Positions 43,590-46,240 of a DNA stretch of 64,000 nucleotides are shown here, piece by piece. The translations under genes were made by a program, and so were the position numbers. This DNA comes from Fragilaria crotonensis. Its lineage: Eukaryota; Bacillariophyta; Fragilariophyceae; Fragilariales; Fragilariaceae. The stretch's first letter is position 1; every line of letters starts with the position of its first letter. The notes under the pieces are model-generated. The model ran no database searches and had not been told where the DNA came from. It saw only the letters and a list, made by a program, of their open reading frames with translations. The stretch spans positions 1-64,000 of the forward strand of contig JAKSYS010000036.1 in assembly GCA_022925895.1 (NCBI GenBank), read 5' to 3'.

Positions 43590-43690
43590 GCTTGTACTGA
43601 GAGTACTTTACGGTGTATGGAATGCAAGTATGTTTGGTACAAGTACCGGTACTCCGAGTACAATTGTACAACCGGTATCATTTGCATTAT
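43590..43690. repeat. GTAC-rich tract upstream of lumen-protein gene
   Basis: TGGTACAAGTACCGGTACTC and neighbours lie about 80-170 bp upstream of the start at 43760. Open frames extended into this tract produce Tyr- and Val-rich sequence and are not believed. Confidence 0.55.
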
Positions 43691-43759
43691 TATCGACCCA
43701 ACAAAACGCAAATCATACAACTTCACAACATCACTGAACACAAAACTCTAGAAGGCAAG

Positions 43760-44551
43760 ATGTTCACTTTCGTGCTGTTAACCACTCTCTTTTTGACAGA
43801 ACCATGGTCCATAGTATCGCTGAGGATTAATCCTTCTAATACCAGTACTCGAAGGGATGTTTGTCAGAGCTGGTTGACAGCTGCTACTGTGGTCGGAACG
43901 ACAGCTCCATTAACAATAACGACAATGCCTTTGGGAGCTTTGGCTCGCAATTTGCCCCAAGACACGGGTGCGGATCGTTCGGCAACAGGCACACTCTCTA
44001 CGCTAATACCCATTGTCAAGATACAGAAAACGTTGTCACATGTGAACAACATATTATCAATACCGCCGAAGCGTGGAGATGGTGATATGGCATTGTCGCC
44101 AACGCCGTCGCAGTTGCAAGACATCAAAATGGCAATAGCCAACATCCCGACGTTGGAACAGAAATTCAAACGCATTTTCGATGAATATTCCGACCCCGTA
44201 TCGTACAAACAGAAATATCTGGATCAAAATGCATTTCTCGTTTATTACACCAAGGGCTTTGATGGTCCCAACCGTCCGTCGATCGAAGCGGATCTGCCTG
44301 ATCTAAAGCAGACACTGCAATACGGTGCTCGCAATGAAGCATGGGTGGCATGGGAAAGCTTTGTGGCTGAACTTCAATTCGCCCAACATCAACAATATCC
44401 AGCTTCTGCAACACGCGACGACGACGACGTGACGAACTCCTCGCTTCACGAACTACTCACAGCCTTGCAGGCAACCCAAGTGGCCGTGGATTCGTACCTT
44501 TCATTGGCCCCACCCACCGATTTGGTGGAAGCTCAACAACAAATCAAGTGA
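43760..44551 (+). CDS. Predicted thylakoid-lumen protein (helical, PsbQ-like look)
   Basis: 263 residues from the Met at 43760 (MFTFVLLTTLFLTEPWSIVS); the longer frame runs into a GTAC tract. The leader is a signal peptide, followed by STRRDVCQSWLTAATVV and ending MPLGALA-RN: twin arginines, a hydrophobic core and an A-x-A site, the pattern of a Tat-dependent thylakoid transfer domain. The mature part of about 200 residues is mostly helical (LEQKFKRIFDEYSDPVSYKQ, LHELLTALQATQVAVDSYLS) with a YLDQNAFLVYYTKGFDG motif. This resembles the helical bundle lumen proteins around photosystem II, but I cannot assign it to PsbQ or another named subunit. Convergent with the small selenoprotein-like gene (208 bp between stops). 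Confidence 0.7.
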   Translation: MFTFVLLTTLFLTEPWSIVSLRINPSNTSTRRDVCQSWLTAATVVGTTAPLTITTMPLGALARNLPQDTGADRSATGTLSTLIPIVKIQKTLSHVNNILSIPPKRGDGDMALSPTPSQLQDIKMAIANIPTLEQKFKRIFDEYSDPVSYKQKYLDQNAFLVYYTKGFDGPNRPSIEADLPDLKQTLQYGARNEAWVAWESFVAELQFAQHQQYPASATRDDDDVTNSSLHELLTALQATQVAVDSYLSLAPPTDLVEAQQQIK

Positions 44552-44619
44552 TTGCAGTCTACACAGTACATATTGGGTGTTTTGGTTTCTCACTTATTTC
44601 ACTCAAATTCATACACCAA

Positions 44620-44680
44620 AAATGTCGTTCATCAGCCGATCTTCCTTTGAGGAATGAATTGGCGTCATTCCAAGAACCGT
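44620..44680 (-). promoter_or_regulatory. Candidate SECIS element
   Basis: About 90-100 nt beyond the UGA of the SelK-like gene, the minus strand shows an ATGA (44668-44665) and a TGAT (44634-44631) that could form the non-canonical quartet. Between them lie possible helix arms GCC/GGC and TTCCT/AGGAA around a CAA loop; GTTC/GAAC lies outside as helix I. The apical loop is short and pairing is imperfect, so this was judged by eye as possible, not proven. Confidence 0.3.
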
Positions 44681-44759
44681 GTGGGTTGATTGCAACTGAT
44701 TGGTGTGAAATATGCGTATATTCGCAAAGGATGGGGCGGACTACCAACAGCCGACACGC

Positions 44760-45315
44760 CTAGACTCGTCATCCACCCTTTGGATCACACGGCAAATCCT
44801 TGATACCCCGGATGCGTGGTTCACCTCTCCTACTTGCTCTACCGCCAGAAGGACCATCATTGTTGGATCCACCATTGCTCCTATTGCTGCCTGATGGCGC
44901 TATTCGGTTCCATAGTGTATACACCCCAAGCAGTGCGATAATCCCTAGCGCTGTAGTGAGGAAGATTGAGTGAGTTCCACCTTGTCCTTAATCGTGTAGT
45001 ACAAGTAGCATTCAATATGCAGATTTCACACACTACCAGCCAAGCAGGCGGTAGCAATTAGAAATCATAAATCACACTCCAACTACCGGTACTCACTTCC
45101 GCGAATACCAAGCATGAAGGAAAGAATTCCGAGTAGAATGAGAAATTGTCGCACTTGTAGATTGAATCAAACACATCCAAGGCTGTCCCTCCCGATCGGA
45201 GGAAAGCAGACGATGTAGCGGTGGGATCATCATTATTGTCGTCGTCGTTGATACGAACGACATCGCCGTTCGCGTTGATCCTGGTGGTCGTTATCTTTCG
45301 ATTGGGTTTCGTCAT
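44760..45315 (-). CDS. Putative SelK/SelS-like selenoprotein with in-frame UGA
   Basis: Proposed exons 45315-45255, 45153-45097 and 44980-44760, 112 residues. Exon 1 starts MTKPNRKITTTRINANGDVV. Exons 2 and 3 encode two hydrophobic segments (RQFLILLGILSFMLGIRGS and IFLTTALGIIALLGVYTLW). The C-terminal tail is Gly/Arg/Ser-rich (SNGGSNNDGPSGGRASRRGE) and ends DLPCDPKGG-UGA-Arg-Val-TAG; the UGA is at 44771-44769. SelK and SelS end in Gly-Gly-Sec within a few residues of the stop and have a Gly/Arg-rich cytosolic tail after an ER membrane helix, which this matches. Intron 2 (GTGAGT...CAAG) is well supported. Intron 1 (GTATCA...TACAAG) is the only splice consistent with frame but removes a stop-free stretch, so the N-terminus is uncertain. 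If UGA is a plain stop the protein merely ends in Gly-Gly. Confidence 0.55.
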
Positions 45316-45369: not shown

Positions 45370-46240
45370 ATGCTATGAAATGGCACGACGACACAGTAAC
45401 GTAGTAGCACAAACTCTAGTGCAGTACTGTAGTATCTTTCGCTGTAACCCAACAGTAGAAATGGTACTACAGTACCTGGTACTTTGTGAGGCTGAGTATT
45501 CAATACTCGTGCCTATCATACGACAGTACAGTACATACCTTGCACTGCTGTACTCCGTCAGTGGAGTGCTACTCGTACCCTTTTGCGCACAAAAAAAGGG
45601 ATTGCTCAAAGACGTCTGTTGCACTGGAGTATAATACTGTACACGATATCACCGTAATTACCGTTGTCTACAAAAATGCAGATATGCGTATGTATAGAAA
45701 GAAGCTTCCACTGGTTGCTACATACCAGTACTGGGGGAAACATATACAAATATTGCCGTTAAACGTCAGGGTTATACAAATCTGGTATATGTTTCCATTT
45801 CTACTTCGAGTAGCAATTGCTAGCTTGAACCGCGTAAAAGTTCCTCTACCGACTTGTAGTACTTGAAAGTTATACCCCTCTTGTATAAGATTCTAAGTAC
45901 AGGAGTCCTGTACGTCCTACGGTTCGTCTAGTACATTATGTAATGACGTACTGCGCGTACAAATTTTCTACGAGAATTGTTCTCAATTCTCGGATGATAC
46001 GGTGTCACGACGTCACGACTCACGACTCAACGCAGTGGTGAGCAATGGTGAACTGTCGACTGTCGATGCGACCTCTACAGTACTCGAAGTACAGTACTAG
46101 GTACTTCAGTACTTAAGCCCTCCGCGTACAATGGTACTCGGAGTACTAGTACTTGTACCAGTACTGTACTTGTACTCAAGTAATCAAGTACGATGTACTT
46201 GTACCCAAGTACTACGGTACGCAAGTACATTGCACTCCGC
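45370..46240. repeat. Very dense GTAC tract
   Basis: The stretch from about 46075 to 46235 contains around 19 GTAC tetramers in some 155 bp by eye, as AGTACT, TTGTAC and GGTACT words, many head-to-tail and self-complementary. Open frames of up to 137 codons nearby (45221-45866) are by-products of this composition. No gene was recognised between the SelK-like gene and the element at 46259. Confidence 0.75.

Follow-up and report, generated by a model that had tools for sequence, protein, structure and literature searches.

The window, a 64,000-nucleotide stretch of Fragilaria crotonensis DNA, carries on its minus strand, at 45315-44760, a small two-exon gene whose reading frame ends ...GIKDLPCDPKGG-TGA-CGA-GTC-TAG (the same end can also be written ...IRGIKDLPCDPKGG-TGA-CGA-GTC-TAG). 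The initial annotation had described this end as Gly-Gly-UGA-Arg-Val-stop, placed it on a Gly/Arg-rich tail behind a hydrophobic stretch and pointed to a DLPCDPKGG motif; all of these are present in the window frame, with the motif directly before the TGA. The spacing of the conserved tail is Cys-x5-TGA, which puts the Cys six residues ahead of the putative selenocysteine (Sec), as CDPKGGU. Gly-Gly-Sec with a nearby Cys is a usual context of a C-terminal Sec. The features of the locus are listed in Table 1.

Table 1. Features of the candidate gene and its 3' region, in window coordinates.
Feature	Position	Strand	Description
Exon 1	45097..45315	minus	ATG, basic N-terminus with RINANGDVV, Asp-rich stretch, LDVF, then next frame GFNLQVRQFLILLGILSFMLGIRG; P0002 91% identical
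Frame discrepancy, one base, within conserved DVFGFN	45160..45180 (near 45170)	minus	seven relatives have a single frame here
Intron, single	44951..45096	minus	146 nt, GTGAGT...CTACAG, phase 1
Exon 2	44760..44950	minus	second half of hydrophobic core, Gly/Ser/Arg-rich tail, RIRGIKDLPCDPKGG, TGA, Arg, Val, TAG
In-frame TGA, proposed Sec codon	44769..44771	minus	P0029 has W, then RV and end
TAG stop	44762-44760	minus	two codons (CGA, GTC) after the TGA
SECIS-like core	44631..44669	minus	AATGAC 44669-44664; 30-nt hairpin 44664-44635, TCAAAGG apex; TGAT 44634-44631

The gene had been drawn initially with two introns. Its relatives, including the transcripts P0006-P0008, support one phase-1 intron instead (45096-44951), and in these three transcripts RG-T/I continues exactly at the intron junction. 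Exon 1 and exon 2 together amount to 410 nt, a length that three does not divide, so that the frame slips by one base inside DVFGFN. Enumeration of single-intron models had yielded only forced junctions until two relatives revealed the frame, and the two-intron model was then rejected. The peptide of P0001 runs on past LDVF, in the next frame of the window, as GFN...GIRG. P0002 (91% identity over 54% of the query) reaches a few codons into the same intron and has DVFGFN in one frame, so an intact copy exists. The hexapeptide is found letter for letter in 19 of 31 relatives. The second intron of the earlier model probably stood in for the exon-1 discrepancy, which would reflect an assembly error or a broken allele, the former being the likelier.

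Relatives of the protein are known here from protein sequences alone. A homology search with the uncorrected protein retrieved a single relative, P0001, the frame-corrected query retrieved seven, and a three-row profile retrieved 31 at E <= 10, of which 29 reached E <= 1e-3. The C-terminus is kept in 22 relatives, the other nine comprising exon-1 sequence only, and DLPC is invariant in all 22. Since 29 of the 31 relatives lie at E <= 1e-3 and every retained C-terminus has DLPC, the motif is not a product of chance. As deposited, 20 of the 22 proteins stop immediately short of the position of the window's TGA, one is longer by a single residue, and P0029 runs beyond it. Their ends read DPKGG (nine), DPKVG (six), DPKRG (three), DPRRG (two), EPRRGG (P0008) and DPKGGWRV (P0029), counts in which the same gene may occur twice (P0010 and P0023 have common tails).

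P0029 ends in ...DLPCDPKGGWRV, with Arg-Val and the end of the protein following the TGA position as in the window, at 36% identity to the window protein over 49% of the query and 29% over the whole alignment. Its W likely stems from a gene caller using a code in which TGA is Trp; it could instead be a real TGG. Of the two signs proposed initially, Arg-Val conserved past the UGA or a Cys in place of the UGA, the first was seen in P0029 only, and none of the 31 relatives has Cys at the Sec position.

Four relatives (P0006, P0007, P0008 and P0013) are full-length transcripts and complete by their source label. The only organism named is the diatom Seminavis robusta, whose protein P0016 is annotated "expressed unknown protein"; the rest are MMETSP transcripts and metagenomic sequences, and we infer that the family is spread across the diatoms. 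No Pfam family fits the window protein. Within the assembly (62 Mb, 881 contigs), no second gene copy was found, and the window was the only zero-mismatch match to the motif; two matches with two mismatches (L012 and L013) lay in frames with many stops upstream and were rejected. Thirteen pattern matches in viral contigs included no nucleotide relative by tblastn, and a pattern search of bacterial and archaeal genomes gave four exact matches to the pattern, all in bacterial records. A profile search of the PDB gave three matches (best E 1.1), none accepted as a relative. Neither the string DLPCDPK nor a novel transmembrane selenoprotein of diatoms was found in the literature searched.

Judged by its gene content, the genome appears to use Sec. 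Four known selenoprotein genes have TGA at the Sec site: GPx (L020, VNVASQ-TGA-GLT), SelM (L026, SCSG-TGA-KLNRYP), SelT (L008, CVG-TGA-GMKRN) and SelU (L027, RRPG-TGA-FFCREQA). The eEFSec-specific domain was detected above its cut-off (E 4.1e-26), and a SelD-family gene without an internal stop is present. SepSecS had no match in the assembly. For tRNA-Sec, Rfam gave four matches below the cut-off among the 53 of 5073 candidates scored, all on plastid contig C881, and of the eight sites picked out by a pattern search, neither Rfam nor ARAGORN recognised any as a tRNA. Contig C881 (150 kb) carries rbcL, with top-scoring PDB chains 7yk5, 5n9z and 5mz2, which we take to be diatom Rubiscos. The absence of tRNA-Sec is weak evidence, because only those 53 candidates were scored and because tRNA-Sec has been reported, in a published scan, from another diatom, Fragilariopsis cylindrus (PMC5330540).

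Several of these genes have Cys counterparts. The SelT copies L008 (G000:C173:54882) and L009 (74351) lie 19 kb apart, one with TGA at CVGU and the other with Cys; L009, in which the AATGAC hairpin is still in place, seems to have changed from Sec to Cys and to have kept its SECIS. The tandem SelM copies L026 (G000:C548:30192) and L025 (31487) read SCSG-TGA-K and SCSACK. A GPx-like frame with Cys for Sec, L023 (G000:C282:57705), has several in-frame stops past the first conserved block, perhaps marking introns or a broken copy.

Downstream of the candidate, an AATGAC lies 90 nt past the TAG. In the four known genes the same word lies 31 (SelM), 31 (SelT), 52 (GPx) and 24 nt (SelU) from the stop and is followed by a 20-31-nt hairpin and TGA[ACT]. 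The apex of the candidate hairpin, TCAAAGGAAG, resembles that of SelM, TCAAGGAAG. We used a strict descriptor (AATGAC, hairpin, TGA[ACT]) with limits set by the four known genes; these limits were fixed with the candidate already seen and were tightened once after a looser version had matched one other site in the window. In this form the descriptor matched the candidate alone in 128,000 window bases (both strands), and it matched 11 of 20,000 first-order Markov sequences generated from the candidate's 208-nt 3' region. It was then applied to 24 of the 28 non-plastid loci, leaving out L007, L011, L023 and L024, which overlap others or the window. Seventeen loci gave no match. The seven that did were the window's own copy (L001), the four known genes, the SelT Cys paralogue L009, and L025, whose match overlaps the SelM element. 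No match occurred in 220,000 plastid bases. Among the Cys genes, AATGAC was absent within 200 nt of the GPx genes L018, L019 and L021, and it followed the stop in two paralogues, L009 (with a hairpin) and L025 (without one).

By nearest-neighbour energy, which leaves the non-canonical quartet unscored, the SECIS-like fold lies 2.5 kcal/mol above the minimum free energy (MFE) of its 73-nt stretch, the competing hairpin using AATGA; the corresponding values for the known genes are 4.1 (GPx), 1.2 (SelT), 0 (SelM) and 0 kcal/mol (SelU). Folded over 131 nt, the 3' region does not stand out (z -1.22; 23 of 200 shuffles at least as stable). The Rfam SECIS model matched neither the candidate nor any of the four known genes, and its silence is uninformative because it extends to the known genes alike. 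When the elements of the four known genes were aligned automatically, their second core was put in the wrong place. The SECIS search proposed initially for 44560-44760 on the minus strand gave this element by descriptor only, without an Rfam match and with a fold that is not the MFE structure. On the plus strand, a convergent open frame occupies 43613-44551 and stops some 80 nt away from the SECIS-like element; counted from an inner ATG it has 263 residues, and Pfam gave nothing for it at E <= 1. By eye, short GTACTGTAC/TACTGTAGTAC-like words are repeated upstream of the gene (about 45400-45600) and in the 3' region of L026.

The two hydrophobic segments described initially were not clearly borne out: five of six proteins have one hydropathy peak, and the sixth has two that overlap. 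The AlphaFold model of P0009 (16 rows; mean pLDDT 61 and pTM 0.31 for the whole model) has short strands at residues 32-41, a 40-residue helix at 42-81 (block pLDDT about 69-83) and a low-confidence tail. A single short transmembrane helix is a feature of SELENOK, against which the single peak in five of six proteins and the 40-residue length of this helix have to be set.

Taken together, we consider it highly probable that the gene encodes a small diatom membrane protein in which Sec is inserted at the TGA, three residues from the end. The initial proposal that the UGA is read as Sec is well supported by the genome context, by a rightly placed SECIS-like element and by one relative that continues ...GG-x-RV. 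The TGA could also be an ordinary stop, the protein then ending in a conserved -GG (or -VG, -RG) that works as a degron, a docking motif or another C-terminal signal. In favour of this, all but one of the 22 relatives with a C-terminus terminate, as deposited, at this Gly or at the next residue, and searches of the assembly recovered neither tRNA-Sec nor SepSecS. Degrons with a C-terminal Gly are also known from animals, where their substrates include selenoproteins (PMC7458402). The short database entries are nevertheless indecisive, because gene callers cut selenoproteins at TGA anyway; P0029, moreover, runs on through W to the same two residues as the window, and the element 90 nt downstream matches those of the genome's own selenoprotein genes. 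We regard an ordinary stop as very improbable.

Also very improbable, in our estimate, is that the window copy is a decaying pseudogene with a real exon-1 discrepancy, a reading that would be compatible with the family being selenoproteins. The coding length not divisible by three, the split of DVFGFN between frames and the lack of a second copy in the assembly would fit such decay. Against it, the start, splice sites, hydrophobic core, tail, TGA-Arg-Val-stop and SECIS-like element are all intact, the very similar exon 1 of P0002 is in a single frame, and a one-base assembly error is the simpler reading.

Under the preferred reading, UGA would be decoded as Sec in a membrane protein of about 136 residues ending ...DLPCDPKGG-Sec-Arg-Val, with the SECIS about 90 nt behind the TAG recruiting eEFSec with Sec-tRNA. 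The N-terminus is basic and then acidic, and DVFGFN leads into a predicted hydrophobic helix or hairpin of 35-40 residues that would act as the anchor. The conserved Cys of the flexible Gly/Arg-rich tail could form a selenenylsulfide with the Sec (CDPKGGU). By analogy with SelK and SelS, such a tail would most likely face the cytosol at the ER and take part in redox or quality control. Should Sec insertion fail, the product would terminate in -GG, with -VG and -RG as the other ends seen among the relatives; of these, -GG and -RG are degrons in animals.

Gene prediction appears to truncate this family at the TGA position. If Sec is indeed inserted, public records either shorten a strongly conserved family or list it as unknown, and the entries lack the residue that is probably catalytic. 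Selenium is required by many diatoms, a group that accounts for much of the primary production in the sea. The family also offers a test case for the recurrence of C-terminal GG-Sec tails among small membrane proteins. At somewhat less than an even chance, we suggest that it is a diatom-wide membrane selenoprotein family with a long or two-segment membrane core and an origin separate from SelK and SelS, having reached independently a Gly-Gly-Sec tail with the motif DLPC(D/E)P(K/R)xGU. Were this so, the exchange of -GG for -VG or -RG in some lineages would alter the clearance of truncated products.

The alternative, that the protein is a true SelK orthologue diverged beyond the Pfam model, concerns its filing and does not argue against Sec; we think it unlikely, though it deserves serious weight. 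SelK has NG-V near the N-terminus, a membrane segment, a Gly-rich basic tail and GGU, an order that the window family has in common with it, and a search without a positive control found no separate SelK in the genome. The SelK_SelG model (PF10961) was reached by one of the 23 members scanned, P0029 (E 2.7e-4), at 21.9 bits against a cut-off of 23.3, over the membrane and Gly-rich part and outside the tail motif. SARAF (PF06682) matched four members over a like stretch, also below its cut-off (best E 0.007); composition may explain both results, because both cover the same kind of stretch. No selenoprotein S match was obtained in Pfam among the 23 members. Of the initial assignment as "SelK/SelS-type", the resemblance therefore stands and the Pfam membership does not; because the SelK cut-off was missed despite this resemblance, we file the protein as a new form that resembles SelK and SelS.

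Set beside SELENOK, the candidate is likewise a small membrane protein with a Gly/Arg-rich tail and, if the TGA is Sec, Sec after Gly-Gly near the C-terminus behind a Gly-rich basic tail (GG-TGA-RV, tail SGGRASRRGEPRIRG). It differs in its longer predicted hydrophobic core (35-40 residues), in DVFGFN and DLPCDPKGG, and in the Arg-Val after Sec; we know of no SelK counterpart for DVFGFN or DLPC. With SELENOS/VIMP it has in common a membrane anchor, a C-terminal GG-Sec and a Cys upstream of the Sec. At the ER membrane, p97 is a binding partner of both SELENOS and SELENOK (PMC10607139). An algal survey reports 20-44 selenoprotein genes per diatom and distinguishes 42 families, including SELENOK, SELENOS, MSP and "Hypo" (PMC7539508), under one of which the window family may have been filed there. 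The Thalassiosira pseudonana selenoproteins tabulated in PMC2375036 do not include SelK, SelS or MSP. MSP itself, known from Ostreococcus, Chlamydomonas, Volvox and Dictyostelium, is like the window protein a predicted membrane selenoprotein, but by its description it has two Sec residues (PMC2375036).
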